Assembly (NCBI GenBank): GCA_028875855.1
Contig: JAGWVA010000037.1
Coordinates: 1-39,343 of the forward strand
Direction of reading: 5' to 3'
DNA from: Paracoccaceae bacterium
GTDB taxonomy: Bacteria > Pseudomonadota > Alphaproteobacteria > Rhodobacterales > Rhodobacteraceae
Length of the DNA stretch: 39,343 bases
Shown here: positions 2,275 to 17,413 of the stretch, piece by piece
Layout of the letters: each line of letters opens with the position of its first letter
Numbering within the stretch: the stretch's first letter is position 1
Translations under genes and position numbers: made by a program
The notes under the pieces: model-generated
The model's database searches: none
Told to the model about the DNA's origin: nothing
Seen by the model: only the letters and a program-made list of their open reading frames with translations

Positions 2275-3540
2275 CTATCCGTCCACACCCGTTTCAGGTG
2301 TGGTGGAAGCAGGCTGCTGGACCACCTCGACCACGGTAACGGTGCGGCCAGAGCGGGCATCATATGCCTCCCCCGGCTTGACAAATCCTCGTTTCGTCAA
2401 TTGGGAAAGAATCCCTTTGATCTTATGACGTACGCCGTTTTGCTCGCTCGTTAAGTCAGCCTTTTTTACTCCCCGCCCGACGTCCCATTTTAGATGCTCG
2501 GCAATAGCGTAGCCCACCCAGTCATGGTTTTGGATGTTTTGCTTCGCGGGCTCTGACCTTCCCGCAAGCATTTCACAAATTTCGTGCAAGAGGCCGTCAG
2601 CGACTGGTTCGCCCTGCGTGGGAGGCTGGGTCTCGATGCAAACGCCGATTTCGTCACCAACGTCGAGATGTGCTTTGCCGTTGTTCAATTTAACGCCAAT
2701 CATCGTGCGCCACTGGACTGTTGATTTCTGCGCGAGATTAGCTTTTCCGTCCACTACCTGGATATAGGGGCCCTCCCAGGGGTCAAGGCCCATGTTCTCC
2801 AGCTCAGCAGGCGGAAACAGACTGAGCGAGCGCGCACTCCTGACACCGTCGATGACTGCGCCCGCTCCACGGCTTGCGTAAATGCCTTGACCCTTTGGAT
2901 CGATCGCGCCCGCTTTGTTGACGTGGTGTACGAGCTCGACAGCGCAGTTGCCTTTGTCCGCTACCGCCCGCCATTGGGCTACAACAGCATTCATGGCCGT
3001 CGTATCGTTCTCGTCGACCAAATGAGATGTCACGAAGGGGTCTATGATAATAACATCGATCTGATGCCGTTTGATGGCGTCGATCAGGGCTGCAACGACC
3101 GGCTCAGCGATTGCCACCCCGGAACGCTCAGTCTTCGCGACACAAATAGGGACGTCCCGGCCACTGTCAGCCATGAACTGACCCGCGAGATCGTCATTTG
3201 TGATATTGTAATGCAGGCAGGCCGCCGCAACACGGCGCTCGATTTCCTCCTTGGGGTCCTCGCCGTTCCAATACCAGACGCGCAGAGGTTTGAGGCCTGT
3301 GTCACCAAATAGCTGCCAGGCAGTTGCCATGGCGAGCGCTTCCGCGATCAGCAGGCTCGATTTCCCCAATCCGCCCGGCGACACTGTCAGCGATACAAAG
3401 CCCCGGACGAGGTGCTTGCCATAGAGCCACTGGCGCGGCGGAATGTCTTTGGGGTCGCGCAATACGAAGGCGGTCGGCGCAATGCCGGAGCTTCCTTCTT
3501 CAAACGCTTCCGGCTGGGGCATGGTGGACGCGTCATTCAT
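2275..3540 (-). CDS. RepA-like AAA helicase of an integrative element
   Basis: The predicted protein has 421 residues and a single ATPase core of the RSF1010 RepA/AAA_25 type. Walker A is SPGGLGKSS (residues 54-62), a catalytic acidic strand-end WNGED lies near 91-95, Walker B is IDVIIIDP (161-168), and the sensor region VELVHHVNKAG is at 201-211. An arginine-bearing ASRGAGAVIDGVRSARS segment covers 222-239. Such proteins form hexamers that unwind DNA at the replication origin of plasmids and satellites. The start is the ATG at 3540, which overlaps the end of the primase gene by 8 nt (ATGAATGA), so translation is probably coupled. The C-terminal 150 residues resemble a winged-helix DNA-binding region but I cannot assign it. 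Base composition is lower in GC than the chromosome to the right. Confidence 0.85.
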   Translation of the reverse strand: MNDASTMPQPEAFEEGSSGIAPTAFVLRDPKDIPPRQWLYGKHLVRGFVSLTVSPGGLGKSSLLIAEALAMATAWQLFGDTGLKPLRVWYWNGEDPKEEIERRVAAACLHYNITNDDLAGQFMADSGRDVPICVAKTERSGVAIAEPVVAALIDAIKRHQIDVIIIDPFVTSHLVDENDTTAMNAVVAQWRAVADKGNCAVELVHHVNKAGAIDPKGQGIYASRGAGAVIDGVRSARSLSLFPPAELENMGLDPWEGPYIQVVDGKANLAQKSTVQWRTMIGVKLNNGKAHLDVGDEIGVCIETQPPTQGEPVADGLLHEICEMLAGRSEPAKQNIQNHDWVGYAIAEHLKWDVGRGVKKADLTSEQNGVRHKIKGILSQLTKRGFVKPGEAYDARSGRTVTVVEVVQQPASTTPETGVDG

Positions 3541-4417
3541 GGTGCGCCTCCACGGTCCGAAGGTGGTCGTTCCAATCCATCCCATCGGGTGCGTGCAGCA
3601 TGGACACGCTCCAGCCTGCTTTGTGAGCACGCAGGGCGAGGTCATGCCCGGCATCACGACCGGCTTGATCTCCATCGGTCGCAACAATCAGGTCCCCCGG
3701 CGTATGCGGGAGCCGCAACCCACGCATCCCGCTCGCGGAAAGAGCTGCCCAGATCGACGCAGGGGCGCGGAGAAGGCCGCTTGCGAGCGACAGGGCCGTC
3801 TCGATGCCCTCCGCCACGACAAGCGCGCCCTCGGCCTGCACGAGCCGCACAGCGCCTCCAGCGACGGCCCCGAGCATGGCCTTTTGCGGATCAACCTGCG
3901 CCTTGCCGGTACCATCCGGGGCGAGGAACGTCCGATGGACCGCAGGACGGTCTGCACCCTCGACCAGCGCCACCATCGCGGGCAGCATCAGGCCGCTCGG
4001 ATGCCTCAACGCCGGATGAAACCGCAGCGACGGGGGCATCGGGCATATGATCCCCCGTCCGCGAAGATAGGTTTCGCCTGGCGTGCCCTCGATCGAGCTC
4101 GCCTGGTGCCACAGGCTCAGCGCATGCCGGGCCTTCCTGTCGGCCTCGGCCTGCCGTTCGCGCTCGCGCTGCGCCAGAAGATCCGGGTCGGGCGCGGCGT
4201 AACTACCGGGCGCGATCCCAGAGGCAGCCAACACGTCGCCGAATGCGCAGCCGAGTTTCTTGCAGTGCAGCAAGAGCCGGCCGTCGGCGCCGTCCGAGAT
4301 GGTCAGCGCATCCTGATCGGAGCGACGCTCGGGTTGGCATACGGGACAGGGTGCAGTGCCGTAGCGCCCGCGCCAATGGCCACCCAGGGTTTGGGTGAGT
4401 GAATTTCCATTCGTCAT
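3533..4417 (-). CDS. Toprim-domain primase of an integrative element
   Basis: This 294-residue protein has an N-terminal zinc ribbon (C24-x2-C27 and C52-x4-C57). A basic linker (RERERQAEADRKARHA) and a Toprim domain follow. The Toprim glutamate lies in VVAEGIETALS (E203) and the paired aspartates in VATDGDQAG (D248, D250). This layout matches phage/plasmid primases that make RNA primers at a dedicated origin. A ribosome site, AGGAAG, precedes the ATG by 8 nt. It is followed by, and overlaps, the hexameric helicase gene, giving a primase-helicase replication pair. About 93 nt separate it from alpA upstream, so one alpA-primase-helicase transcript is likely. Family confidence is high; autonomous replication of the element is inferred. 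Confidence 0.88.
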   Translation of the reverse strand: MTNGNSLTQTLGGHWRGRYGTAPCPVCQPERRSDQDALTISDGADGRLLLHCKKLGCAFGDVLAASGIAPGSYAAPDPDLLAQRERERQAEADRKARHALSLWHQASSIEGTPGETYLRGRGIICPMPPSLRFHPALRHPSGLMLPAMVALVEGADRPAVHRTFLAPDGTGKAQVDPQKAMLGAVAGGAVRLVQAEGALVVAEGIETALSLASGLLRAPASIWAALSASGMRGLRLPHTPGDLIVATDGDQAGRDAGHDLALRAHKAGWSVSMLHAPDGMDWNDHLRTVEAHHE

Positions 4418-4510
4418 TTTTGGGCTTCCTTAAAAGAAAGCCCGGCGATGCTGGTTTAATATGGCTATGGAGATTTAGTACGCTCGGGCCCAGCGTAAAC
4501 CGGGCTAGTT

Positions 4511-4690
4511 TCAGATGTGGTTCGATGGGTTGCGGTTCACGATTGCCAGGATTTCCTGTTCCGGCCAGCGGGACAACGATCCGATCTTAACGGGCCGCGG
4601 AATAGTTCCATCGGCGACGCGGCGATAAAAACTCGCCGGCGAAATTCCGAGGATGTTTGCCGCTGTGCGGCAGTTGAGCAGACGTGCCAT
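4511..4690 (-). CDS. AlpA-type helix-turn-helix excisionase/regulator, 59 aa
   Basis: A small gene read on the minus strand: ATG at 4690, TGA at 4511, preceded by AAGGAG 7 nt upstream. The product starts MARLLNCRTAANILGISPAS and contains FYRRVADGTIPRPVKIG. This is the MerR-like winged helix of the AlpA/Xis family: a first helix with the TAA-x-LGIS turn, a recognition helix SFYRRV, then the basic wing with PVKIG and SRWPEQEIL. AlpA proteins control excision and integrase expression in P4-like elements. It sits between the integrase and the primase, the usual place in such elements. The repeats at 4773-4840 lie just upstream and are its likely target. The call is strong for the family, moderate for excisionase function. 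Confidence 0.88.
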   Translation of the reverse strand: MARLLNCRTAANILGISPASFYRRVADGTIPRPVKIGSLSRWPEQEILAIVNRNPSNHI

Positions 4691-5033
4691 GATGTTCTCC
4701 TTTTCTGATGGCTCGACGAATATGGCACATCATGAGCCGGGATGCAAATGGCGGCGAGAAAAAAGTGTGAAATGTCAGTATGTTGTCGATTAATTGACAA
4801 CGCTAGCCCTTCGATTGACACTTAACTGACAACGCAAGCCGATCCATGCGGTTTTCCCCGACTCAATGTATCGGAGGGCGACTCGGTTTAGGGGGAAGTG
4901 TCAGAACAGATCATGGCGCCGTTACTGAAGCGAGCCGCCATGCATGTATCGGTTCGCGGCGCCTGATGGCGGCATTTCCGAAATCGACCTATGTGATAGA
5001 GTGAGGTTTTCCCTTCGGCGGGAAGCTTAACCT
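4691..5033. other. Non-coding control region between integrase and alpA
   Basis: These 343 nt hold no credible gene. The left half contains the palindrome and direct repeats described at 4773-4840 and must include the alpA promoter (minus strand). One candidate -35 for that promoter, TTGTCA, lies within the palindrome. The right half includes a short hairpin (TTCCC/GGGAA near 5013-5028) just past the integrase stop. It lacks a U-tract, so I do not call it a terminator. Confidence 0.5.
4773..4840. repeat. Palindrome plus 19-bp direct repeats upstream of alpA
   Basis: TTGTCGATTAATTGACAA (4783-4800) is an 18-bp palindrome with a single mismatched pair. TTAATTGACAACGCTAGCC (4790-4808) recurs as TTAACTGACAACGCAAGCC (4822-4840), 17 of 19 identical, 32 bp apart. 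Additional TGTCA/TGACA cores occur at 4773-4779 and 4815-4820. Spaced repeats of this sort are typical of Xis/AlpA or integrase arm sites, repressor operators, or iteron-type origins. Position directly upstream of alpA favours an operator or arm-site role. Confidence 0.7.
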
Positions 5034-6278
5034 TTACTCGACGCCGCCAGTTACATGCAGGTAGAGGCGTTCCGCGATTTCAGCTCGCTCTTTGGAGGTA
5101 TCCTGCCGGCGGTAGTTCCGATCGAGTCCAACGAGCGAGTGGTCGCAGAACGCGTCGGCGAGATAATCTGGGATCGGCGGCGCGGCCTTGCGGCAGAAAA
5201 TCTTGATCGCATTCCGGAAGCCGTGTGACGTGATGGTCGGGTCGAACTGCTTGAGGACCTTCAACAGGGCGTTGGGCGATATATGGCCCCGTGTCACGGG
5301 GCTCGCAAAGACGTAATCGTTGGCCTCGGACCCCTGCAGGGCCTCAATCCGACGCTGCAGGCCCTCCGGAAGCGCTAGACTGTAAGCGCGGCCAGACTTC
5401 ATCCGTCCGGGGGCGTCCTTCTCTTTTCGTTCAGGGACTGTCCAGATACCCGTGGCGGGATCGTAGTCTTCCCATTTCATCTCAACGATCACACCGACCC
5501 GGTGGGCCGTCACCATCGCAAAGAGGATCGCTGTCTTGGTCGTTAGCCCCGCATCCCGGCCCACCAGCCATTGCCACAGATCCGGCAACCGTTCTGGCTC
5601 CAGCGTGCCGTGGTGGCGCGTTGCCGTCTGCCTTTTCGGAAAGGTTCGCCTGGGTGGTGTCGGATTATAGGGGATGAGCTCCTGCACCGCGGCCCTTTCA
5701 AAGACCTTACTGATGTGCCCAAGCGCATGCCCGGCGGTGGTGGGTATGGTTTTGAACAAGGGTTCTAGCAGCGAGAAGATCTCCGCCCGCGTGATCTGCG
5801 CGATTGGGCGCTTGCCGAGCGTTGGGCTGATGTGTTGCTCGTGGATTGCCCGCGGCCTCCGTCTGCTAGGCCCGCTCTGCAGTGTCATCTCAACACCGCC
5901 GAACCATTGCTCCCACAGATCGTTGTAGGTCGGCCCACCCGGCGACTGTACCGTAGCTGCGGCTGCATGGGGGCGCCTGCGCACGATGGCTTCCAGTTCA
6001 GTGCCGTTTTTTGCGGATAGAAAAGCACTGCTCAACGCCTGGGTCGAAAACCCTTCGCCGCGAAGGCGCTTTGCTATCAGTGCCAGCTCACGTGCCTGCG
6101 CCAGGGTCGTGTCGGGATAATCGCCGATCTTCAGCCACGTCTCGACCCTGAGGTAGAACGCCTTGCTCCCTGACTTCCAGCCGCGAACGTATAGCCCGCT
6201 TCGGCCTCCAGTGCTGTGGGCCTCCCCATCCTTGGCAGGCGTCCACTTCTTGATCGCCACATCGGTCGATAGCGCCAT
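5034..6278 (-). CDS. int: Tyrosine recombinase integrase (P4-like)
   Basis: This is a site-specific recombinase of 414 residues if the ATG at 6278 is used. It has an N-terminal arm-binding domain of the P4 type (AIKKWTPAKDG, SGLYVRGWKSGSKAFYLR), a SAM-like core-binding domain, and a C-terminal catalytic domain. The catalytic set is visible: R260 (AHRVGVI), H352-x2-R355 (SHGFRN), H380 (CDHSLVG) and nucleophile Y389 (RNYRRQ). The ATG at 6278 has GGGAAG upstream and fits the family start. An in-frame ATG at 6314 would add 12 residues but lies inside a tandem repeat with no ribosome site. It reads leftward into the element and is the outermost gene before the chromosomal GC content resumes, as expected for an island integrase. 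No frameshift is seen, so it is probably functional. Confidence 0.92.
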   Translation of the reverse strand: MALSTDVAIKKWTPAKDGEAHSTGGRSGLYVRGWKSGSKAFYLRVETWLKIGDYPDTTLAQARELALIAKRLRGEGFSTQALSSAFLSAKNGTELEAIVRRRPHAAAATVQSPGGPTYNDLWEQWFGGVEMTLQSGPSRRRPRAIHEQHISPTLGKRPIAQITRAEIFSLLEPLFKTIPTTAGHALGHISKVFERAAVQELIPYNPTPPRRTFPKRQTATRHHGTLEPERLPDLWQWLVGRDAGLTTKTAILFAMVTAHRVGVIVEMKWEDYDPATGIWTVPERKEKDAPGRMKSGRAYSLALPEGLQRRIEALQGSEANDYVFASPVTRGHISPNALLKVLKQFDPTITSHGFRNAIKIFCRKAAPPIPDYLADAFCDHSLVGLDRNYRRQDTSKERAEIAERLYLHVTGGVE

Positions 6279-6302
6279 GGTCTCAACTTCCCGCGCGACA
6301 GT

Positions 6303-6322
6303 ATAGATACACATAGATACAC
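6303..6322. repeat. Perfect tandem 2 x 10-bp repeat at the integrase 5' end
   Basis: ATAGATACAC occurs twice without a spacer (6303-6312 and 6313-6322), just upstream of the chosen integrase start and over the alternative ATG. It may be an operator or an arm-type site for the integrase. No function can be proven from sequence. Confidence 0.55.
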
Positions 6323-6551: not shown

Positions 6552-6758
6552 CTACCCCCGCAGTTTCCGGCGCAGGCTGAGGGCGAGGATCGCGATGCAG
6601 CCCATGAGCAGCAGGCCCGCCCCCGCCAGCGGCGCGAGCCCCCCGTAGCGGACCGCGAGTGCCACGAGCGCGATCAGCCCCAGCACCTGCAAGGCAAGGT
6701 TGCCGTCATCGACGAAGAGGCCGAGGATCTCGGAGAAGATCGAGGACACGAATTTCAT
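6552..6758 (-). CDS. Small two-helix membrane protein, function unknown
   Basis: A 68-residue protein with a short amphipathic N terminus (MKFVSSIFSEILGLFVDDG), two hydrophobic helices (about residues 20-37 and 42-61), and a positively charged tail RRKLRG that probably stays in the cytoplasm. Its ATG overlaps the TGA of the preceding membrane protein gene as TGATG, so the two are almost certainly co-translated. I recognise no family. Partnership with the upstream COG4280-like protein is inferred from the coupling. An upstream in-frame extension to 6869 lies entirely within that neighbour and is not credible. Confidence 0.7.
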   Translation of the reverse strand: MKFVSSIFSEILGLFVDDGNLALQVLGLIALVALAVRYGGLAPLAGAGLLLMGCIAILALSLRRKLRG

Positions 6759-7501
6759 CACACGGCCTCCTGCCGGCTGCGGGCCCCGGTCATCACCTGA
6801 ACGGCAACGAGCGAGACGATGAGAAGAATGGCAAGCAGGCCAAGAATCGACAGGTCGGCCCCGGGCCATGCCGCGCCCAGACCCTCGCCGGTCCAGAAGA
6901 TGCCGAAGGCGGTCAGCATCAGCCCCACGGCGAATTTCAGCGTGTTCTCGGGCACCGTGCTCAGCGGTTTGTGGACGACCGCACCGACCAGCAGCACGGC
7001 GATGGCGGCGGCCAGCGCGCCGAGGCCGGCGATCAGGGTCATGTGATGCGCGGTGCCGACCGCGATGACGATGAAGACGACCTCGACCCCTTCCAGCAGG
7101 ACTGCCTTGAAGGCAGCCATGCCCGCCAGCCAGTCGGCCCGCTTGTCGGCCGCAAGCTTCGTCAGCGCGTCGGTCTCCTTGGCAAAGGCGGCCTCTTCGT
7201 CATGCAGCGCGATATGGCCCGAGGCGCGCAGGATCGCCTTGCGCAGCCAGCGCATGCCGAACAGGATCAGCAGCGTGCCGATCACGAATTGCAGCGCCTC
7301 GAGCGGGATCATCGCAAAAAGGGGTCCGAAGACCAGCACCAGCACAACCAGCAGCGCCAGTGCAGCGAAGGTTCCCGTCAGGGCGGGCCGCCAGCTGCGC
7401 GTCAGCGCCACGGCCAGCACGATGGTGAAGGCCTCGACGACCTCGACGACCGAGGCGAGGAACGCCGCCGTCAGGGTCGGCAGGATGGATGTCAGGTGCA
7501 T
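6758..7501 (-). CDS. Polytopic membrane protein, COG4280-like, with internal repeat
   Basis: The protein has 247 residues and roughly seven hydrophobic helices. It contains an internal duplication: AAFLASVVEVVEAFTIV (from residue 12) aligns with AAFKAVLLEGVEVVFIV (from residue 129). Each copy carries an E-x-V-E pair in the membrane (E20/E23 and E137/E140). The two halves are joined by a charged cytoplasmic loop rich in K, D and E (about 86-125). Paired acidic residues in duplicated helices recall metal or cation transporters such as FTR1, TerC and UPF0016, but no substrate is established for this family. The ATG at 7501 follows GGAAAGGACC. It is the first of two overlapping genes downstream of the RpiR regulator (66-nt gap), which suggests shared control with the ABC importer. 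Confidence 0.75.
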   Translation of the reverse strand: MHLTSILPTLTAAFLASVVEVVEAFTIVLAVALTRSWRPALTGTFAALALLVVLVLVFGPLFAMIPLEALQFVIGTLLILFGMRWLRKAILRASGHIALHDEEAAFAKETDALTKLAADKRADWLAGMAAFKAVLLEGVEVVFIVIAVGTAHHMTLIAGLGALAAAIAVLLVGAVVHKPLSTVPENTLKFAVGLMLTAFGIFWTGEGLGAAWPGADLSILGLLAILLIVSLVAVQVMTGARSRQEAV

Positions 7502-7567: not shown

Positions 7568-8494
7568 TCAGGCGAAATCATCGTTGCCTGTGCCCGTCGG
7601 GCGCAGGCGCGTGCCGCGCTTCAACCAGTCGCGGTCGATGCGGCCCCGCAGGCGGCTGACGCTGTCGAGATGGCCGATCGCCCCCGTGCGGTCGCGCGCG
7701 GCAAGGCCCAGCGTCAGGGCCTCGATCAGCACCATGGTCGCGCCGTGCAGCGCGAGGTGATCCGTCCGGCCCCGCGGCACGGTCAGCACGCAATCCGCCC
7801 GGTTTCCCACCACCGGGCCAAGGCGATCGGAGATCAGCACGACCCTCGCCCCCACGTCCGCCGCGCGATCAAGGATCACCTCGACCTCGCGGTAGAGCGG
7901 CGCATAGGCCAGCATCACGATGACATCGGCAGGCGCGACCCAGGCCAGCTGGTCGGCAAGGGCCACCCCCGGCTCGGTCAGGGCCGCGCTCCGCAGGCCG
8001 ATGCGATTGAACTGGAGCGCGGCATAGCGCGCGATCGCGCCCGAGGGGCCGATGCCGAAGACATGCCGCACCGCCGCGCCGGCCATCAGGTCCAGCGCAT
8101 GGGCGAAGGCTTCGGCAAGATCGGGGCGGCGCAGCGCGGCCAGCGCATCCTCGTGCAACTCCACCACATGCGCGAGGATGGCGGCCGGTTCTCCGGTCGT
8201 GGCATCGAGCGTGCGCGACAAAAGCCGCGCGGGGGACGCGGCGCCCGTCAGTTCGGCCAGCAGGTCCTCCCGCAGTTCGAGCAGCCCGCCATAACCCAAC
8301 GAGCGCGCCGTGCGCACGACCGTGGCGTCGCTCGCGCCCGCCGCCTCGGCGATCTGGGCGGCGGAATGCAGCACGACGGCCTCCTTGTGGGCGGTGAAGA
8401 ACAGCGCCATGCGCGCCTCGGCGGGCGAAAGCCGCGGCAGAGACGCCTCGACCCGGAGATCGAAGCCAAGACGTTCGGTGTTCTCTGCCCCCAT
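7568..8494 (-). CDS. RpiR/MurR-family transcriptional regulator (HTH plus SIS domain)
   Basis: A 308-residue regulator. The N-terminal HTH_6 domain (about residues 10-85) shows LSPAEARMALFFTAHKEAV, SAAQIAEAAGASDATVVR and ARSLGYGGLLELR. A SIS domain (about 125-260) follows, with VFGIGPSGAIARYAALQFNRIG and ADVIVMLAYAPLYREVEVIL. SIS domains in this family bind phosphosugars or related phosphorylated ligands. The ATG at 8494 has GGAAGAGG upstream. It lies 131 nt downstream of the ABC ATPase gene, same strand, and has its own upstream inverted repeat (8518-8553), so autoregulation and control of the adjacent membrane genes or transporter are likely. The actual ligand is unknown; a phosphorylated organic compound would fit the Pho-box-linked transporter. 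Confidence 0.88.
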   Translation of the reverse strand: MGAENTERLGFDLRVEASLPRLSPAEARMALFFTAHKEAVVLHSAAQIAEAAGASDATVVRTARSLGYGGLLELREDLLAELTGAASPARLLSRTLDATTGEPAAILAHVVELHEDALAALRRPDLAEAFAHALDLMAGAAVRHVFGIGPSGAIARYAALQFNRIGLRSAALTEPGVALADQLAWVAPADVIVMLAYAPLYREVEVILDRAADVGARVVLISDRLGPVVGNRADCVLTVPRGRTDHLALHGATMVLIEALTLGLAARDRTGAIGHLDSVSRLRGRIDRDWLKRGTRLRPTGTGNDDFA

Positions 8495-8517
8495 GGCGCG
8501 CCTCTTCCGATTTCGTA

Positions 8518-8553
8518 GTGAAGACTTCGAACTTTTAAAATTGTTGTCTTCAC
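8518..8553 (-). promoter_or_regulatory. Candidate RpiR operator: 8-bp inverted repeat
   Basis: GTGAAGAC (8518-8525) and GTCTTCAC (8546-8553) form a perfect inverted repeat around a 20-bp AT-rich core (TTCGAACTTTTAAAATTGTT). It begins 24 bp upstream of the rpiR-family start codon. The AT-rich core is the likely -10 region of this gene's promoter. Binding there would block transcription, consistent with autoregulation; this is inferred from position and symmetry. Confidence 0.6.
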
Positions 8554-8625
8554 GACGTCGCTTACCAACCCATGCCGCGGCTGACAATCCGCTTTTGCCC
8601 GGAAAGCCCGTCCGGCAGGGCCGTC

Positions 8626-9660
8626 TCAGGCCGGATAGACAAGGCAGCGGTCCCAATCGACGTGAAAGGCCACGCGCTCGCCCGGTGCGATGCGGCGATC
8701 GACGCGCAGGTGGATCGCCCCGCCCGGAAGATCGACCAGCGCCTGCCATGCGCCCCCGGCATAGCCACAGACCTCGACCGTGCCCGCGACGGTTCCCGCA
8801 TCCGGATCGGCGGGCCGCAACCACTGCGGGCGCAGGAACATCTCGGCCGCGCCGGGCCGCAGCCCTTCGGGCCGGGGGCCACGGGCCTCGCCCCAGATCA
8901 GCGCGTCGTCGGTCGCCTCGACCGCGAAGGGACCGGCCGCCCCGGTGAAATGCGCCACGAAGGGCGTTGCGGGCCGGTCATAGACCGCATCGGGCGCGCC
9001 GATCTGCAACAGCTCCCCGTGCCGCAGGACACCGACCTGATCGCCCAGAAAGAACGCCTCGGACTGGTCGTGGGTGATGTAGAGCGCGGCGATGCCCGCG
9101 TCGCGGATCGTCGCCGCGATCATGTCGCGCAACTCGTCGCGCAGCTTCGCGTCGAGGTTCGACAAGGGCTCGTCGAACAGCAGAAGCTGGGGCCGGGTCG
9201 CCAGCGCCCGGGCGAGCGCCACGCGCTGTTGCTGGCCGCCCGACAGCTCGTGCGGGTAGCGTGCGCCAAGCCCTTGCAGACCTACTTCGGCAAGGGCCGC
9301 GGCCGCACGCGCGCGCCAGTCCGTGGCCGCGCGCTCGCGCAGCGGCAGGCCCACGTTGTCCGCGACCGTGAGATGCGGCCAAAGCGCGTAATCCTGAAAC
9401 ACCATGCCAAGCGCGCGCCGTTCCGGCGGGGTGAAGGCGCGACCGGCAGCATCGACAGGCGCGCCCGCGATGTGGATGGCGCCGCCGTCCAGCGTCTCCA
9501 GCCCCGCCACGAGACGCAGAAGGCTCGTCTTGCCGGACCCCGAGGGACCGAGCAGACACAGGATCTCCCCCGGCATGAGCGAAAGCGACACCCCGGCGAC
9601 GGCCTGGGTCTGACCGTAGCGCTTTTGCGCCGCGCGGATTTCGAGGGCGGGAATGCTCAT
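8626..9660 (-). CDS. ABC transporter ATP-binding protein (FbpC/PotA type)
   Basis: The 344-residue nucleotide-binding subunit has Walker A GPSGSGKT (residues 38-45), Q-loop FQDYALWPH (about 88-96), signature [15 protein letters not shown] (from 139) and Walker B LLLFDEP (159-165), with the switch histidine in ITHDQSEAF. About 120 C-terminal residues form a TOBE-type domain, as in importers for polyamines, Fe(III), sugars and 2-aminoethylphosphonate. The ATG at 9660 overlaps the permease stop as ATGA, so the two are coupled. It should power the fused permease encoded upstream. Substrate cannot be read from this subunit. Confidence 0.9.
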   Translation of the reverse strand: MSIPALEIRAAQKRYGQTQAVAGVSLSLMPGEILCLLGPSGSGKTSLLRLVAGLETLDGGAIHIAGAPVDAAGRAFTPPERRALGMVFQDYALWPHLTVADNVGLPLRERAATDWRARAAAALAEVGLQGLGARYPHELSGGQQQRVALARALATRPQLLLFDEPLSNLDAKLRDELRDMIAATIRDAGIAALYITHDQSEAFFLGDQVGVLRHGELLQIGAPDAVYDRPATPFVAHFTGAAGPFAVEATDDALIWGEARGPRPEGLRPGAAEMFLRPQWLRPADPDAGTVAGTVEVCGYAGGAWQALVDLPGGAIHLRVDRRIAPGERVAFHVDWDRCLVYPA

Positions 9661-11438
9661 GTCATGGGCTCGGTGGAAAGGCGCTGCCAGGCGCGGGGGG
9701 TCAGGCGGGAAAAGGCGAAGCGCAAGACCAGCACCGCGCCGCCCACAAGGGCGATGGCGGTCAGTTGCAGGGCGGCCTCGGTCTCGAAGTTGAAGCCGTG
9801 CAGATAGGCGATCAGCGCGACTGCCAGCGGCGGAGAGCCCGCCGGATACAAAAGCTCGGACGCCGGCAGTTCGAACACGATGTGGCTTGCCGTCAGCAGG
9901 AAGGCGAACATCAGCGGCGTCGCCAGAAGCGGCAGACGGATGTGCAGCCAGCGGCGGGAGGCGGGCAGCCCGTGGACGGCGGCGGCCTCCTGCAGGTTGC
10001 GGTGTTGCTGGCCGACCGGGCCCAGCAGCATCCGCGACGTCACGGGAAGCGCGCCGGTGATATAGGCCATGACCAGCGCCACCGATGATCCGTAAAGCGG
10101 CAACCACGGCTGGTTGAAGGCGAAGATGTAGCCGGCCGCAAGGATCAGGCCGGGCAGCGCCATGATGGTCAGAAGCCCCCAGTCCAGCAGCCGCGTCAGC
10201 CCACTTGGGCGCATCAGCGCCAGCGCAAGCGTCAGCCCCAGCACGATGGCGCAGACCGCCGCCACCAGCGCCATCCGCACCGAGTAGAGCAGCGCCCCGA
10301 AGACCTCGGGCAGACGGAAGACATCGGCGTAATGCGACAGGCTGATATTCGACAGCGTGAAGGGCTTGGAGGCATCGCCCACCAGCGACACGGCGGCGGC
10401 GGCGAAGACCGGGATGCCGAGCGCGAGGATCAGCACGACCGCGACCGCACCAAGATGACCGGCACTCATGGGCCGGGAAAGGCGGCGGCGGCGCGGCGGG
10501 CGGGCGCGGCCCGTGATGACGCGGTAACGCTCCGCCCGGCGGTTCACGCGGGTCTGCAGCCACACCGCAGGCAGCACGAGGCTCAACAGCAGCCAGCTGT
10601 TGGCCGCCGCAAGGCTGAAGTTCAGCGGCATGGCATTGAGCGCCGCGTAGATCGCATAGGTTGCCAGCGGGAAATTGGCCCCCGCCGCGAGCGTGGAGGC
10701 GACGCCGAAATCCGCCAGCGACTCCGCATAGACCATGGCAAATGCCGCCAGCAGCCCGGGAACAAGCAGGCCAAGCGACAGCCGCAGCCGCGTCCGGGCC
10801 GAGCAGCCGTGAACGCGGCCGGCCTCGTCAAGTTCCTCGGGCAGCGATTGCCACGCGGCGACGAGGGTCAGGTAGGCGAAGGGGATGCCCTTCAGGCCCA
10901 GCACGAACATCACGCCGAAAGGGCTCACCATGAGCGCGGCGGCCCATGGCACGTCGATCAGGCCGCCGGGCGCCAGCAGAAGCTGCCAGCCGACCGCCAT
11001 GAAATAGGATGGCAGAAGCAGGATCGCCCAGACCGCGCCCTCGATCAGGGATCGGCCGGGCAGCGCCGTGCGGGTGGTGAGCCACGACAGCCAGACGCCA
11101 AGGGTCGTCGCGATCGCCCCCGCCCCGGCGCCGATCCACAGCGAATTGAGCAGGGCGCGCAGGTTGTAACTGCCAAGCGCCTCGCCAAAGCTGTGCAGGC
11201 TCAGGATGCCGCCCGGGCCGGTCTGCCCGAACAGATGGGGAAAGAACGCAAGCGCCAGAAAGCTCAGCAGCGGATAGCCCAGAAGCAGCATGACGGTGCC
11301 GATGCCCACGATCGGCAGCACGATCCGCTGCGGCGCCCGCAGCATCATGTCCGCGACGCGCGACGCGGCCGACGGGCCGCTGCGAAGACGCGGGGGCATT
11401 GCCCCCGCGACCCCGTCTTCCATGTCCCCCGAGACCAT
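9657..11438 (-). CDS. Fused two-domain ABC permease (FbpB/PhnU2-like)
   Basis: A 593-residue inner-membrane protein with about twelve helices in two homologous BPD_transp_1 halves. Each half has the cytoplasmic EAA loop that contacts the ATPase: DEAGRVHGCSARTRLRLSL in the first and QEAAAVHGLPASRRWLHIRL in the second. A basic linker (RARPPRRRRLSRP) separates the halves. The fused design is typical of Fe(III) (FbpB), sugar-phosphate (AfuB) and putative 2-aminoethylphosphonate permeases. It starts 4 nt after the binding-protein stop; an alternative ATG at 11423 is preceded by a G-rich site and cannot be excluded. With its neighbours it makes a complete importer. Confidence 0.88.
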   Translation of the reverse strand: MVSGDMEDGVAGAMPPRLRSGPSAASRVADMMLRAPQRIVLPIVGIGTVMLLLGYPLLSFLALAFFPHLFGQTGPGGILSLHSFGEALGSYNLRALLNSLWIGAGAGAIATTLGVWLSWLTTRTALPGRSLIEGAVWAILLLPSYFMAVGWQLLLAPGGLIDVPWAAALMVSPFGVMFVLGLKGIPFAYLTLVAAWQSLPEELDEAGRVHGCSARTRLRLSLGLLVPGLLAAFAMVYAESLADFGVASTLAAGANFPLATYAIYAALNAMPLNFSLAAANSWLLLSLVLPAVWLQTRVNRRAERYRVITGRARPPRRRRLSRPMSAGHLGAVAVVLILALGIPVFAAAAVSLVGDASKPFTLSNISLSHYADVFRLPEVFGALLYSVRMALVAAVCAIVLGLTLALALMRPSGLTRLLDWGLLTIMALPGLILAAGYIFAFNQPWLPLYGSSVALVMAYITGALPVTSRMLLGPVGQQHRNLQEAAAVHGLPASRRWLHIRLPLLATPLMFAFLLTASHIVFELPASELLYPAGSPPLAVALIAYLHGFNFETEAALQLTAIALVGGAVLVLRFAFSRLTPRAWQRLSTEPMT

Positions 11439-11442
11439 GCGC

Positions 11443-12465
11443 TCAGTGCACGATGTGGTTCGTGAACCAGCTCACCACGCTCGCCTCGCGCGGGCCCCAG
11501 ACCATCGGATCGACATACTGGGTCTTGAGCGCGGACAGTTGCGGCAGATGGGCGTCCGGCGTCTCGCCGTTGATCAGCGGGTTGAAGAGCGAGTCGCCGC
11601 CCGCGTCGCCGGTCATCGCGATCTTCTGGCCTTCCTTCGACAGCACGAACTGGATGAACTGCTCGGCTTCCTTCTGCACCTCGGGCGAGGCACCGGCGGA
11701 AATCGCGATGGTGCGCGGCAGCAGGCTGACCGGGGTCGGATAGACGACGGCGAAGGGCTGACCCTTCATCTTGCGGCCGATGCCCGCGCTGTCCTGCGCG
11801 ATGGCGACCGAGGTCACGCCCAGGCCGAGCGCGCGAAGATTCGGGCCGTTGGTGTCGAAGACCTTCACGTCGTTGGCCTTCATCTTTTCCCACCAGGCCT
11901 TGCCCTGCTCGACGCCGCCCTGCCACTGCATCATGCCCGCGACCATCGGATAGGTCGGGCCAGAGATCGCCGGGTTGTTCATGCCGACCTTGCCCTTGAA
12001 GGCGGGCTTCGTCAGGTCATCCCAGCTCGTCGGCCAATCGGCCTTGTTCGGCAGCTTCTTGGTGTTGACGACGATCGCGCCCGCGATGGAGACGGCGGTG
12101 GCGGTGTAGGCGTGATCCTTCGGCTGCAGTTCGGCCCCGGTCGCGTTCCAGTCGGCCTTGGGCGCGAAGGGCTTCAGCATGCCCTCGTTGGCCAGCGCGC
12201 GCATGCCTTGCGCCCCGTCCACCCACAGGATGCCCCATTGCGGGTTCTGTTTCTCGGCGGCGACCTTGGCCAGAAGCGGGCCGGTCGAGCCGTCAACCAC
12301 CTTCGTCGGAATGCCGGTGGCCTTCTGGAAGGCCTCGCCCATCGCGGTGTCGTAGCCGATGGCGGCATAGATGACGAGCGGCGTGGCCGCGGCGGCGGCA
12401 CTGGCCAGGCCGCAGACGATGGCGGTGCTGGCGACAAGCGTCTGGATCAGCGAGTGTGAGCGCAT
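11443..12465 (-). CDS. Periplasmic binding protein of organophosphate/phosphonate-type ABC importer
   Basis: The protein has 340 residues, with a signal peptide (hydrophobic core LVASTAIVCGLASAAAAA, cleavage near residue 26-27). The mature start is TPLVIYAAIGYDTAMGEAF, the family 1 solute-binding fold of FbpA, AfuA and AepX/PhnS2 proteins. Further family segments are VDGSTGPLLAKVAAEK, PNKADWPTSWDDL, and FIQFVLSKEGQKIAMTGD. An AGAGGAAG-type ribosome site precedes the ATG at 12465. First gene of a minus-strand operon with the fused permease and ATPase. The Pho-box-like promoter at 12595-12627 and the divergent phnCDE operon argue for a phosphorus-containing ligand such as an aminophosphonate or sugar phosphate. 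Iron or another oxyanion remains possible. Confidence 0.85.
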   Translation of the reverse strand: MRSHSLIQTLVASTAIVCGLASAAAAATPLVIYAAIGYDTAMGEAFQKATGIPTKVVDGSTGPLLAKVAAEKQNPQWGILWVDGAQGMRALANEGMLKPFAPKADWNATGAELQPKDHAYTATAVSIAGAIVVNTKKLPNKADWPTSWDDLTKPAFKGKVGMNNPAISGPTYPMVAGMMQWQGGVEQGKAWWEKMKANDVKVFDTNGPNLRALGLGVTSVAIAQDSAGIGRKMKGQPFAVVYPTPVSLLPRTIAISAGASPEVQKEAEQFIQFVLSKEGQKIAMTGDAGGDSLFNPLINGETPDAHLPQLSALKTQYVDPMVWGPREASVVSWFTNHIVH

Positions 12466-12594
12466 GGGTCTTCCTCTCTTGGGCCGGAACGGGCCGGCCC
12501 CGATGGCCGCCCGGGCGAATGGAATGTTCTGAAACCGATCCGGCGACGGGCCGGACCCCGTGAACGTCAAAGCGACAAAATCTGCGCGGACCCG

Positions 12595-12627
12595 GTCTAG
12601 GATGCGTTCATTACAGCCGGGTGACAG
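12595..12627 (-). promoter_or_regulatory. Pho-box-like promoter of the binding-protein operon
   Basis: Read on the minus strand: CTGTCAC-CCGG-CTGTAAT (12627 to 12610). The two heptamers start 11 nt apart, as in the PhoB consensus CTGTCAT-N4-CTGTCAT. After exactly 9 nt comes CTAGAC (12600-12595), a plausible -10. The opposite promoter has the same layout and spacing, which strengthens both calls. Transcription would reach the start codon at 12465 after about 120 nt. Control by PhoB under phosphate limitation is inferred. Confidence 0.72.
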
Positions 12628-12722
12628 ATTTGTAGCGAATGCAACAACGCTGGCTGACGTTTGTGTGATCGACGCCGCCTGTGGACTGTGCGGATCGGCG
12701 CCGCCGCGCCGGCACAACAAAA

Positions 12723-12766
12723 CTTTCACGAAGCTGTGACTGCCCTGTGATCTGATGCCGCTAGCA
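12723..12766 (+). promoter_or_regulatory. Pho-box promoter of phnCDE
   Basis: Three heptamers at an 11-bp period: CTTTCAC (12723-12729), CTGTGAC (12734-12740) and CTGTGAT (12745-12751), against the consensus CTGTCAT. Nine nucleotides further is CTAGCA (12761-12766) as the -10. The start would fall near 12773, about 20 nt before the phnC ATG. The repeats replace a conventional -35, as usual for PhoB-activated promoters. Confidence 0.78.
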
Positions 12767-12792
12767 GTCCCCCGTCTGCGGAAGGGGACACA

Positions 12793-13620
12793 ATGCTGCT
12801 GAGCGTCGAAGGTGTGACAAAGGTTTTCGGATCGGCCACTGCTGTGGAACGGGCGACCTTTGCCGTCGAAAAGCCCGCCATGATCGGCATCATCGGCCGG
12901 TCTGGCGCGGGCAAGTCAACGCTGCTGCGCATGATGAACCGCCTGACGGATGCGACCGCGGGCCGGCTCGTCTTCGACGGACAGGACATCCTGTCGCTGA
13001 CGGGGGCGGCAAAGCGTGCATGGCAAAGCCAGTGCGCGATGATCTTCCAGCAGTTCAACCTTGTGCCGCGGATGGATGTCGTCTCGAACGTCCTGCACGG
13101 CACGCTCAACCGTCGTTCGACCCTGTCGACGGTCTTCAACCTCTACCCGCGCGACGACATTCATCGCGCGCTCGACATCCTCGACCGCCTCGGGATCGCG
13201 ACCCAGGCCGCCAAGCGGGCCGAGGCGCTGTCTGGCGGCCAGCAGCAGCGCGTCGCCATCGCCCGTGCGCTGATGCAGAACCCGAGGATCATCCTTGCCG
13301 ATGAGCCGATCGCCAGCCTCGACCCGATGAATGCGCAGGTCGTCATGGACACGCTGCGCCGCATCCACGAGGAAGACGGACGGATGGTGATCGCGAACCT
13401 CCATACGCTCGACACCGCGCGGCGCTATTGCGACCGGGTGATCGGGATGCGGGACGGGCGGATCGTCTTCGACGGCGGCCCCGACCTTCTGACCACCGAC
13501 GCCGCGCGCGAGATCTACGGCGCGGGCGAAGACTTCTCGGAACACGCGACCTCCACAGCCATCGAGACGCTGGAGACCGCGACCGCCTATCCCCGCGCCC
13601 AAAGCGGCGTCGGGGCCTGA
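12793..13620 (+). CDS. phnC: Phosphonate ABC transporter ATP-binding protein
   Basis: The 275-residue ATPase of the PhnCDE importer has Walker [10 protein letters not shown] (residues 35-43), Q-loop [16 protein letters not shown], which is characteristic of PhnC, signature LSGGQ (146-150), Walker B IILADEP (166-172) with IASLDP, and the switch histidine in ANLHTLD. It energises uptake of phosphonates, and in some bacteria phosphite or phosphate, across the inner membrane. A ribosome site GAAGGGG lies 6 nt before the ATG. First gene of the plus-strand operon directly behind the three-heptamer Pho box. The C-terminal tail (about 240-275) is longer than needed for the fold and carries no motif I recognise. 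Confidence 0.94.
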
Positions 13621-13662: not shown

Positions 13663-14562
13663 ATGAAGACGATCCTCGCAGCCGCCTTGATGACGACCGC
13701 CATGGTCGCCACCGCCCAAGCCCAGGAGCCGATCAAGGAATTCCGCATCGGGATTCTTGGGGGTGAAAACGCCCAGGACCGCATCAACGAGAACCAGTGC
13801 CTCGTCACCTACTTCCAGAAGCTGCTGGGCGTGCCGGTGAAGCTTTACACCCCGGCCGACTACAACGGCGTGATCCAGGGCCTGCTTGGCGGCACCATCG
13901 ACTTTGCCGGCCTTGGCGCATCCGGCTACGCCAAGACCTATGTCGAGAACCCCAACGCGGTCGAGCCGGTGCTGACCACGGCGAACCCCGACGGCTCCTA
14001 CGTCTATTACTCGATCGGCTTCGCGCGGAAGGATTCGGGCATCAAGACGCTTGCGGATGCCAAGGGCAAGGTCTTCGGCTTCGGCGACCCGAACTCGACC
14101 TCGGGCTACCTGATCCCCTCGATCGAGATCCCGGCGAAGCTCGGCCAGCCCATGGACAAGTTCTTCGGCCAGGTGAAGTTCACCGGCGGGCACGAACAGA
14201 CCATCGTCGCGGTTTACAACAAGTCGATCGACGCGGGCGTGACCTGGGCCGACGGCCAGGGCCGCTGGGAAGACGGCTTCAACAACGGCGCGCTGCGCAA
14301 GGCGGTGGACGCGGGCCTGATCGACATGAACAATCTTGTCGAGATCTGGCGCTCGAAGCCGATCCCGAACGGGCCGTGGGTGCTGCGCACCGCCCTGCCG
14401 CAGGACGTGAAGACGAAGGTCGTGGCCTTCCTGAAGGACCTCAACAAGACCGACAAGAAGTGCCTCTACAACATCGCGGGCGGCGAGTCGGCCGGCCTCG
14501 TTCCGATCACCAAGGATTACTACGACTCGATCATCGCGGTGCGCCGCGCGAAGTCGAACTGA
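13663..14562 (+). CDS. phnD: Phosphonate-binding periplasmic protein
   Basis: The protein has 299 residues and an N-terminal signal peptide (MKTILAAALMTTAMVATAQA, cleavage likely after AQA at about 20). The mature protein has the PhnD fold: FRIGILGGENAQDRI, PADYNGVIQGLLGGTIDFAGLG, and the phosphonate-oxygen-binding loop GDPNSTSGYL. That loop corresponds to the Ser-Thr-Ser of E. coli PhnD (here S145, T146, S147). It captures phosphonates in the periplasm for PhnC/PhnE. GGAG lies about 8 nt before the ATG. It is flanked by hairpins on both sides, which may allow higher expression than the other subunits. Confidence 0.94.
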   Translation: MKTILAAALMTTAMVATAQAQEPIKEFRIGILGGENAQDRINENQCLVTYFQKLLGVPVKLYTPADYNGVIQGLLGGTIDFAGLGASGYAKTYVENPNAVEPVLTTANPDGSYVYYSIGFARKDSGIKTLADAKGKVFGFGDPNSTSGYLIPSIEIPAKLGQPMDKFFGQVKFTGGHEQTIVAVYNKSIDAGVTWADGQGRWEDGFNNGALRKAVDAGLIDMNNLVEIWRSKPIPNGPWVLRTALPQDVKTKVVAFLKDLNKTDKKCLYNIAGGESAGLVPITKDYYDSIIAVRRAKSN

Positions 14563-14625: not shown

Positions 14626-15465
14626 ATGACGAACGAGGCGCTGCGCGGGGCCTATTTCCGCGAATTGCGGCGGCGGCGGCTGACCGGCGCGCTGACGCTC
14701 GCCCTGTTGACGCTTGCGATGGTCGCGGGGTTCTGGATTGCCGACATGCGCAATTCCGGCACCTTCTTCGGTGGCCTGCGTCACCTGTTCGACTTTCCCG
14801 CCGATATCCTTGCCGAGGCCAGCCGAAAGGCTGCGAAGATCCCCGGCGAATGCCTGCACTCTCTGCCCGCGCTGATCGAGACGCTGAACATCGCCGCCGT
14901 CGCCACGCTTGTCGGCACGCTGGGCGGCGGCCTCATGTCGCTGCTGGCCGCACCCGGCTTCGCGCCCTTCCCCCGCGCCGTGCCGGTGTTCCGTCGGATG
15001 ATGGACCTTGGCCGCGCGCTGCCGGAGATCGTGGTGGCGCTGGTGCTGATCTACGTTCTTGGCGGCGGCCCGGTGCCTGCGACCATCGCCATTTCGATCC
15101 ATTCCATCGGCGCGCTTGGCAAGCTCTTCTCTGAAGTAAACGAGAATGCCGACCTCAAGCCGGTCGAAGGCCTGACTTCGGTCGGCGCCGTCTGGTCGCA
15201 GCGCATGGCGGTGGGCGTGCTGCCGCAGGTCGCGCCGAACTGGCTGAGCTACATGCTGCTGCGGTTCGAGATCAACATCCGCGCCTCGGCCATCCTTGGC
15301 TTCGTGGGCGCCGGCGGCATCGGCTACGAGCTGAAGAACGCGATCAGCTGGGGCAAGGGCCGCTATGACGAGGCGGCCGCCGTCTTCATCCTGTTGATCC
15401 TGACGATCATCGTGGTGGACCAGACCTCGTCGGCGCTGCGCAACCGCCTGACCACGGGGGCCTGA
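14626..15465 (+). CDS. phnE: Phosphonate ABC transporter permease, first copy
   Basis: This 279-residue inner-membrane protein has about six helices and a BPD_transp_1 domain. The EAA loop is visible as ENADLKPVEGLTSVGAVWSQ followed by the conserved ending of this family, FVGAGGIGYELKNAISWGKG. Length matches ordinary PhnE proteins. It is one of two non-identical permeases in the operon and probably pairs with the second to form a heterodimeric channel under PhnC. The start follows GCGGGGG; the stop is 1 nt from the next start, so translation is coupled. Confidence 0.92.
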   Translation: MTNEALRGAYFRELRRRRLTGALTLALLTLAMVAGFWIADMRNSGTFFGGLRHLFDFPADILAEASRKAAKIPGECLHSLPALIETLNIAAVATLVGTLGGGLMSLLAAPGFAPFPRAVPVFRRMMDLGRALPEIVVALVLIYVLGGGPVPATIAISIHSIGALGKLFSEVNENADLKPVEGLTSVGAVWSQRMAVGVLPQVAPNWLSYMLLRFEINIRASAILGFVGAGGIGYELKNAISWGKGRYDEAAAVFILLILTIIVVDQTSSALRNRLTTGA

Positions 15466-15466
15466 G

Positions 15467-16795
15467 ATGACGGCAGCCGATCTCTCTGTCCTGCGCGCCG
15501 ACGTGGATCGGCGCTTTGCGCGCCGCCGCGCGGTGGCGCTTGGTCTGCCGGTGCTGGTGCTGGCCTACCTCGTCTATATCTTCTTCGCCTTCGACATCGC
15601 CGGGTTGGCCAAGCGCGCGCGGCTCGACAATGCGGCGATCCTGCTGGCGGACACCTACAGCTACCGGACGGCCGTGACGCAGGACCACCGGACCGACACG
15701 CTGAGCGTGGCGATCAAGGGCTCGCGCAAGGGAACGTTGACACCCGCGCAATATCCCGACTGGGTCAAGGTGGACGGCAAGGCGACCTCGGTCGAGTTGC
15801 CGCACGGGGCCAAGGTCGTGATGTCGGGCGACACGGCGGTTTTTACCCTGCCGCAGTATGGGGTGATCCGTGCCCGGCTGGACGCGCAGAACCACATCGT
15901 CGCCGACCTGCCGCCCGGGCCGCGCCCGGACTGGATCAGCCTGTCGCGCACGCGCCTCGCCGTCACCGCGCCCGAAGGGCGGATGAACATGACTCGGTCG
16001 AAGACCGAGGTGTTTCGCTATTCTCTCGGCTGGGCGATGTTCTTCTTCACCCCGTCGAGCCCCTATTACGGGCATTCCGTCGTAGATCTGGCGCGGGCCG
16101 TGCTGACCGGCGACAGGATCGACCCGGCGCGCGGGAACCTTGCCGGGATGGCGGAGGACTTCTGGCGTAACGATGTCTGGACCCATGGCAGCGTCGCCTG
16201 GGCCATGTTCGAGACCGTGCTGATGGCCTTTCTGGGCACCATCGGCGCAGCCCTGATCGCCCTGCCACTGGCGTTCCTGTCGGCGCGCAACTTCACGCCG
16301 CTCATGAGCCTGCGCTTCGGGGTGCGACGGGTGTTCGACTTCCTGCGCGGCGTGGACGGGCTGATCTGGACGATCCTTCTGGCCCGCGCCTTCGGCCTTG
16401 GCCCGTTGACGGGCGCTTTGGCGATCCTGCTCACGGATACCGGCAGCTTCGGCAAGATCTTCTCCGAGGCGCTCGAGAACGTGGATACCCGCCAGATCGA
16501 GGGCATCCGGTCCACCGGCGCGAACCCGGTGCAGCGTTACCGCTTCGGCGTGATCCCGCAGATCGTCCCCGTGCTGATGAGCCAGGTGCTGTATTTCCTT
16601 GAATCGAACACCCGCAGCGCGACGATCATCGGCGCCATCGTGGGCGGCGGCATCGGCCTGCTGCTGACGCAGGCCATCGCCACCCAGAAGGACTGGGATC
16701 AGGTCACCTATTACATCGTGCTGATCCTTGGCATGGTGATGCTGATGGACTGGCTTTCGGGCCTGATCCGCCGCCGCATGATCCGGGGGAAATGA
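15467..16795 (+). CDS. phnE: Phosphonate ABC transporter permease, second copy with large periplasmic insert
   Basis: A permease of 442 residues, about 160 longer than its partner. The C-terminal 210 residues form the normal BPD_transp_1 domain with the EAA loop EALENVDTRQIEGIRSTGAN and the ending IGAIVGGGIGLLL. The extra length lies between the first helix (about residues 23-45) and the core: roughly 150 hydrophilic residues, predicted to be periplasmic, with beta-rich segments (DTLSVAIKGSRKGTLTPAQY). Long PhnE2 proteins like this occur in alphaproteobacterial phn operons; the insert's role is not established. It may contact PhnD. It begins 1 nt after phnE1 and ends directly against the next ATG. 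Confidence 0.9.
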   Translation: MTAADLSVLRADVDRRFARRRAVALGLPVLVLAYLVYIFFAFDIAGLAKRARLDNAAILLADTYSYRTAVTQDHRTDTLSVAIKGSRKGTLTPAQYPDWVKVDGKATSVELPHGAKVVMSGDTAVFTLPQYGVIRARLDAQNHIVADLPPGPRPDWISLSRTRLAVTAPEGRMNMTRSKTEVFRYSLGWAMFFFTPSSPYYGHSVVDLARAVLTGDRIDPARGNLAGMAEDFWRNDVWTHGSVAWAMFETVLMAFLGTIGAALIALPLAFLSARNFTPLMSLRFGVRRVFDFLRGVDGLIWTILLARAFGLGPLTGALAILLTDTGSFGKIFSEALENVDTRQIEGIRSTGANPVQRYRFGVIPQIVPVLMSQVLYFLESNTRSATIIGAIVGGGIGLLLTQAIATQKDWDQVTYYIVLILGMVMLMDWLSGLIRRRMIRGK

Positions 16796-17413
16796 ATGGC
16801 ACGCCTTGGGCAGGACCCGTATCTCCATCCCGATTGCGAGATCGTCGAGAGCCGCTTTGGCCGCTTCGTCGAGATCGGCCGGGGCAGCCGCGTCGCCTAT
16901 TCCGAGATCGGCGACTATTCCTATTGCGACCGCTACGCCGATATCGCCAATGCGACCGTCGGCAAGTTCGCCAATATCGCGGCCTTCACCCGGATCGGGC
17001 CGACCGATCATCCGATGGGCAACGCGAGCCTGCACCATTTCCTGTATCGCTCGGGCGATTACTGGGACGATGCCGGCCCGGACGAAGCCTTCTTCGCCCA
17101 TCGCCGCAGCCGCCGGGCCACCATCGGCCATGACACCTGGATCGGCCACGGCGCGGTGATCCGGCCCGAGGTGACGGTGGGCCACGGGGCGGTCGTGGCC
17201 TCGATGGCAGTGGTGACGAAGGACGTGGCCCCCTACCAGATCGTGGCCGGCGTGCCGGCCCGGCCGCTGCGCCCCCGCCACCCGGGGCCAATTGCCGACA
17301 GGCTTCTGGCGCTGGCCTGGTGGGACTGGCCGCACGAGGTGCTGCGCGACCGGCTCGACGATTTCCGCCGCCTGCCGGCCGAGGCCTTTCTCGAGAAATA
17401 CGGGCAGGCCTGA
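16796..17413 (+). CDS. Phosphonate-linked hexapeptide-repeat acyltransferase
   Basis: The 205-residue protein is built on left-handed beta-helix repeats ([65 protein letters not shown]). It ends in the family signature [13 protein letters not shown] and a helical tail. The segment [19 protein letters not shown] contains the acceptor-site histidines of this class. It belongs to the hexapeptide transferases recurrent in phosphonate gene clusters (TIGR03308-type). These presumably acylate an aminophosphonate or pathway intermediate; the reaction is not proven. The ATG abuts the phnE2 TGA with no gap, so it is the last gene of the phn operon. Confidence 0.88.

Follow-up and report, generated by a model that had tools for sequence, protein, structure and literature searches.

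The window, the whole 39,343-nt stretch of DNA that was analysed, contains two divergent operons separated by an intergenic region of 327 nt (positions 12466–12792, direct reading). The region is bordered on one side by the binding-protein gene of an ABC importer (minus strand) and on the other by phnC (plus strand). The plus-strand operon comprises phnC (12793–13620), phnD (13663–14562), two copies of phnE (14626–15465 and 15467–16795) and the gene of a phosphonate-associated hexapeptide transferase (16796–17413). Their products score above the cut-offs of TIGR02315, TIGR03431, TIGR01097 (both PhnE copies) and TIGR03308, respectively. The minus-strand operon, referred to as the left operon, encodes a binding protein of the SBP_bac_6/8 class (11443–12465), a fused ABC permease (9657–11438), an ABC ATPase (8626–9660), an RpiR-type regulator with a SIS domain (7568–8494; the start at 8494 is our choice within the open reading frame 7568–8824) and an OFeT_1/GDT1-like membrane protein (6758–7501; 27.0 bits with a cut-off of 26.9), which is conserved together with the importer. 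The 3′ end of the left operon adjoins a mobile element; positions 2275–6314 encode an integrase (5034–6314) as well as Toprim/DUF7146 and AAA_25 proteins.

Each operon is preceded by an array of heptamer direct repeats with a period of 11 bp. The putative left Pho box on the minus strand (12627–12610) reads CTGTCAC-CCGG-CTGTAAT, and a degenerate third repeat, TCGCTAC (12638–12632), lies 11 nt upstream in register. The putative −10 hexamer CTAGAC (12600–12595) starts 9 nt past the last repeat. The putative right Pho box on the plus strand (12723–12751) reads CTTTCAC-GAAG-CTGTGAC-TGCC-CTGTGAT and is identified both by inspection and by the profile described below. Upstream of it, a degenerate fourth repeat, GCACAAC (12712–12718), is in register and occupies the position of a conserved YGTYAC repeat in relatives. 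The hexamer CTAGCA (12761–12766), the putative −10 element of the phn promoter, again follows the last repeat after 9 nt. The sequence-only reading had described two outward-facing arrays with exactly this period, these gaps and CTAG-type hexamers, and its letters and coordinates are exact.

Pho boxes consist of tandem direct repeats of 7+4 nt according to the available text of PMC4415409, and in the E. coli phoA promoter the Pho box covers the −35 place, as described in the accessible part of PMC3348028. The sites in the window share both properties with E. coli-type PhoB promoters. Unlike these, their heptamers run to CTGTCAC and CTTTCAC, and the putative −10 element is nTAnnn of the CTAG type.

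Homologues of phnC are present in 71 of 149 family genomes (one genome per genus), and the upstream regions of 29 relatives were examined. An unsupervised motif search of these upstreams returned the grid YGTYACAAAACTTTCAC-n4-CTGACAC. TA lies on this grid in 26 of the 29 (offset 49 in 17, offset 71 in 8 and offset 93 in one), the mean TA rate being 2.8%, and is absent from the grid in the other three. Of these offsets, 71 and 93 were included once the sequences had been inspected; 49 and 71 are the sole histogram peaks of at least 3. The host phnC site shares the register of the relatives' grid. The arrays of relatives have 2 to about 6 repeats. In eight of the 29 (L028, L030, L032, L036, L038 and L052–L054) the array contains exactly two additional repeats (22 bp) before the TA, and in L042 it contains four, so that array length varies in whole repeats.

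A first profile was derived from 28 relatives with the host excluded. L050 was omitted because its grid could not be anchored, while L029 and L039, which have no TA, were retained. The resulting matrix places the host phnC site first of 78,576 window positions with 27.1 bits. Over the whole host genome, the profile yields at least five matches at E ≤ 10. These lie before ugpB (17.3 bits, E 0.02), before phnC in the window (16.9 bits), before pstS (15.5 bits) and before phoU-phoB (12.5 bits, E 0.69), and the fifth adjoins an open reading frame without a family match (9.8 bits, E 5.0). The whole-genome profile searches scored 150 of 357, 330 and 246 first-look candidates, and weaker sites may be missed. 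The best four host matches are textbook Pho genes, which validates the profile. Thus, the right-hand site is recognised by a model trained on the promoters of other genomes, and together with the TA grid of the relatives this makes its assignment as a Pho promoter close to certain.

The PstS type of the host occurs in just 2 of 90 family genomes. Since this is too rare for a training set, ugpB was used instead; it was found in 34 of 71 genomes, and the upstreams of 29 relatives were examined. The second profile (R2) added those 10 of the 29 ugpB upstreams that have a grid score of at least 3. R2 is too diffuse, giving at least two host matches and missing phnC, ugpB and phoU.

The host genome encodes PhoB (TIGR02154, 356.2 bits with a cut-off of 296.2), and its gene adjoins phoU. 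A PhoR-like kinase scores 325.6 bits, just below the cut-off of 334.2. The phoR-phoU-phoB locus (L061, C139:21000–28500) and pstS (L003, C116) are on separate contigs. In the former locus, a Pho array separates the PhoR-like gene from phoU.

The left site is weak when judged by its profile score only, even though it has two perfect heptamers. A 45-column matrix gives it 13.8 bits in register with the TA, second of 78,598 window positions; the next place has 12.8 bits. Of 149,562 positions in twelve further host loci, one outscores it. The 28-relative matrix gives 11.1 bits one repeat off and 6.2 bits in register with the hexamer. The left site is missing among the whole-genome matches listed for both profiles; the list of R2 is insensitive, because phnC is missed there too. 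The bits given beside the whole-genome lists are 10.3 for phnC and 7.1 for the left site. A scan with a weight matrix from related Rhodobacterales, which had been proposed as a check of both sites, places the right site first in the window. The left one ranks second in the window, but with a margin of 1.0 bit and outside the whole-genome matches listed.

The left site is taken as a probable Pho promoter because its layout recurs before homologous operons. The binding protein is rare. A single-sequence search found it in 2 of 295 family genomes, and a search with a ten-row alignment in 3 of 394 family and 1 of 385 class genomes, the host being included in each of these counts. Ten named loci also carry a homologue, which in one case is a 32-residue fragment. 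The layout precedes the importer operon, with differing neighbours, in each of the three other alphaproteobacterial homologues found. In Solirhodobacter olei, whose binding protein is 84% identical, CTGTCAC-GTGC-ACGTAAT is followed after 9 nt by GTATGC, and the neighbour is a cupredoxin-like gene. This box is identical to that of the window at 15 of 20 positions and lies within the best-conserved stretch of the promoter.

The second homologue is found in a genome of the host's own genus (G182). Its binding protein is 38% identical and the operon order is RpiR, binding protein, permease, ATPase and OFeT_1-like protein. The array GTGACAC-AAAA-CCGTTGC-CTGC-CTGCAGC-GCGC-CTGTCGC lies before the RpiR gene, followed after 9 nt by CTAGAA. 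It ranks first of 31,890 locus positions (19.8 bits) and is among at least six whole-genome profile matches; the others are located at phoU-phoB, a phn transferase, ugpB and pstS, and one is unassigned. In the same genome, a Pho-like CCGTCGC-AGAA-CCGTCGC, followed after 9 nt by CTAGCG, is present before the gene of a phn hexapeptide transferase (C21:475–516, L105).

The third homologue is from another genus (G077) and its importer has genes of DnaJ and a glycine-zipper protein as neighbours. Here, CTGTCAT-ACGA-CTGTTGC is located 157 nt upstream of the binding-protein reading frame, and the hexamer CTAGAC and its 9-nt spacing are the same as in the left promoter of the window. The locus was obtained only after the spacing rule had been fixed. 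When both strands of its 12 kb are scanned with a relaxed form of the rule, the site is the sole match. The matrix gives the site low scores (5.7 and 0.3 bits) and ranks another place of the locus higher, so the site is one found by the spacing rule and not by the matrix. Among 20,000 shuffled upstreams each, the relaxed rule is matched 123 times for G077, 382 times for S. olei and 61 times for the window. The rule does not match the G182 site, which was recognised otherwise and then by the profile. Upstream of eight non-alphaproteobacterial loci, no repeat pair was found within up to 400 nt by a stricter rule, which also missed the G182 site. The same layout before three homologues with other neighbours supports the proposal that the left importer belongs to the phosphate-starvation programme of phnCDE; very probably, it is under phosphate-starvation control.

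Such repeats are by themselves no proof of PhoB. A perfect pair, CTGTCAC-GAAC-CTGTCAT, is also present at host contig C75:5602–5619 (L002 about 4103, minus strand) between the gene of an OmpR-type regulator (PF00072/PF00486) and tctC, and is likely a TctD-type operator. Accordingly, the phn promoter alone might belong to the Pho regulon, and the left repeats might be bound by another regulator of the OmpR family (for example a TctD-like one) or resemble Pho boxes by chance, with the operon run by its own RpiR. The RpiR gene in the left operon and the low profile score of the left site would agree with this. However, the tctC site has no TA at the 9-nt spacing, whereas repeats and −10 spacing recur together before the three homologous operons in other settings. 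Furthermore, the G182 operon is found by a profile for which only phnC promoters served as training set, and the exact minus-strand repeats arise in none of 5,000 shuffles. Restriction of Pho control to the phn promoter is thus improbable, and Pho promoters on both sides are the preferred reading.

The identical geometry of the two sites is the standard layout of the family. One grid of 9 nt followed by a hexamer with TA at bases 2–3 fits five Pho promoters of the host (phnC, left importer, pstS, ugpB and phoU); in the case of phoU, whose last repeat is degenerate, we chose the register. The 9-nt spacing is common to these five and to two of the homologues. Therefore, no special link between the sites in the window is needed, and their matching spacing does not show coupling. 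The location of both arrays in one 327-nt region, facing outward, would also suit a single shared operator on which PhoB molecules co-operate, by looping or in a common complex, as a coupled switch. Against this, each array is followed by a separate −10 hexamer at the standard spacing. In the places annotated, neither the phnC promoters of the relatives nor the importer promoters of the three homologous operons are accompanied by this partner, and the pairing itself was not found elsewhere. Such a coupled switch is very unlikely compared with two separate promoters.

The pattern CTGTNACNNNNCTGTNAY has four exact places in the 3.86-Mb host genome, two of which are the sites in the window. At up to two mismatches it is not enriched (151 places vs 157 for the reversed control), so loose repeat matches are meaningless. 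Of 5,000 dinucleotide shuffles of the 327-nt region, none reaches the plus-strand score and 4 reach the minus-strand score. The pattern CTGT.AY-N4-CTGT.AY-N10-TA occurs three times in 272,310 host positions, at both sites in the window and at pstS; these positions comprise the window and 15 host loci, most of them chosen for carrying similar repeats. The match in spacing, which the sequence-only reading had considered hard to explain by chance, reflects the ordinary Pho layout. That it is a coincidence and neither site a promoter, as the lacking enrichment of loose matches might suggest, is scarcely credible given the family-wide conservation before phnC and the identity of the best genome matches.

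The window most probably contains two separate, outward-facing PhoB-dependent promoters, and this is the reading that we favour with considerable confidence. Under phosphate shortage, PhoB in its phosphorylated form would occupy the 11-bp repeats head to tail, covering the −35 place, and keep sigma-70 RNA polymerase at the CTAG-type −10 hexamer 9 nt past the last repeat. This recruitment mechanism is taken from the E. coli literature (the available parts of PMC4415409 and PMC3348028). Transcription from the plus-strand promoter would cover phnCDEE and the hexapeptide transferase gene. The minus-strand promoter would drive the importer operon with binding protein, fused permease, ATPase, RpiR/SIS regulator and OFeT_1-like protein. 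Both would fire independently under phosphate limitation. We infer PhoB binding, start sites, phosphate response and one transcript per operon from the layout of the sites and its recurrence in relatives.

The left importer lacks the features examined as diagnostic of AepX/PhnS, FbpA and AfuA. It misses the NCBIfam equivalog cut-offs of the PhnS2/AepX-type 2-aminoethylphosphonate importer, though three parts resemble this putative system (TIGR03261, 106.4 bits with a cut-off of 392.75; TIGR03262, 91.8 with 593.25; TIGR03265, 286.1 with 457.7). No phnWX or phnWAY was seen among the genes scanned beside the left operon. The binding protein matches PF13343. A fold search with its model (mean pLDDT 79) ranks HitA first and the putative AEP binder 4r6y second, followed by ferric-binding and AfuA proteins. 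An FbpA-type ferric importer is rejected despite this ranking; the YY pair of HitA, which we take to be the FbpA-type iron ligands, aligns with S226-A227. Among solved structures, sequence similarity is highest to P5PA, a G6P-binding protein (8x1a) and AfuA. A hexose-phosphate binder of the AfuA type is rejected as well, the sugar-contacting His205/Asp206 of AfuA not being kept and likewise aligning with S226-A227.

In P5PA, phosphate is held by T37, S147-G148-T149 and S183, according to the accessible text of PMC8427247. The aligned residues of the left binding protein are T61, S168-G169-P170 and T205. All 10 aligned rows have T61, G62, S168 and G169; T205 is present in eight, with Ser and Val in one row each. 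T61-G62 and S168-G169 align with the phosphate-holding residues of both AfuA and P5PA. Unlike AfuA, the left protein has no His205/Asp206, and unlike P5PA, it has P170 at the position of Thr149. Judged by this alignment, the left protein keeps most of the phosphate cradle, and an organophosphorus substrate is therefore likely. A phosphorus-bearing ligand fits the left Pho promoter.

The OFeT_1-like protein accompanies the importer in the window, G182, G077, S. olei, a Thermaceae MAG and a Deinococcales MAG, although the proteins of S. olei and the Thermaceae MAG are below the Pfam cut-off of OFeT_1. Across phyla, the partners are located at L112 7662–8402, L062 3210–3947, L018 8754–9668, L016 8702–9445 and L015 10000–10743, besides the one in the window. 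With this partner, the system may have a metal role. A contig labelled 'Phycisphaera MAG' shares open reading frame lengths with an Acidithiobacillus locus (L017 and L019) and is probably misbinned.

A related case is AepXVW of Pseudomonas putida BIRD-1, a PhoBR-dependent importer with a binding protein of the pfam13343 class, whereas marine AepX is phosphate-insensitive (both from the available text of PMC8316502). The left binding protein belongs to the same broad class. It differs from AepXVW in its score, far below the AepX-like cut-off, and in the RpiR and OFeT_1-like partners of its operon. Term searches of titles, abstracts and full texts in the open-licence literature, which were not exhaustive, returned no report of the divergent pair or of Pho control of this importer type.

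The explanation is ordinary in kind; its new part is one more member of the Pho regulon, an importer family without an assigned substrate. Tentatively, the left operon might represent a new Pho-controlled organophosphorus uptake system outside the named importer families. It would combine an AfuA/PhnS-like binding protein carrying the phosphate cradle, a fused permease and an ATPase with an RpiR/SIS protein sensing a phosphorylated intermediate, and with an obligate OFeT_1/GDT1-like partner, which perhaps moves the metal counter-ion of the substrate. If so, phosphate limitation would be the key to finding the substrate of the left importer, which appears to be Pho-controlled in the alphaproteobacterial homologues found. 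The promoter provides a regulatory handle on the importer, suggesting a demand for its cargo at times of phosphate shortage. For the family, the phnC and ugpB promoters of many genera yield a testable Pho-promoter rule: repeats every 11 bp, 9 nt and a TA-bearing hexamer.
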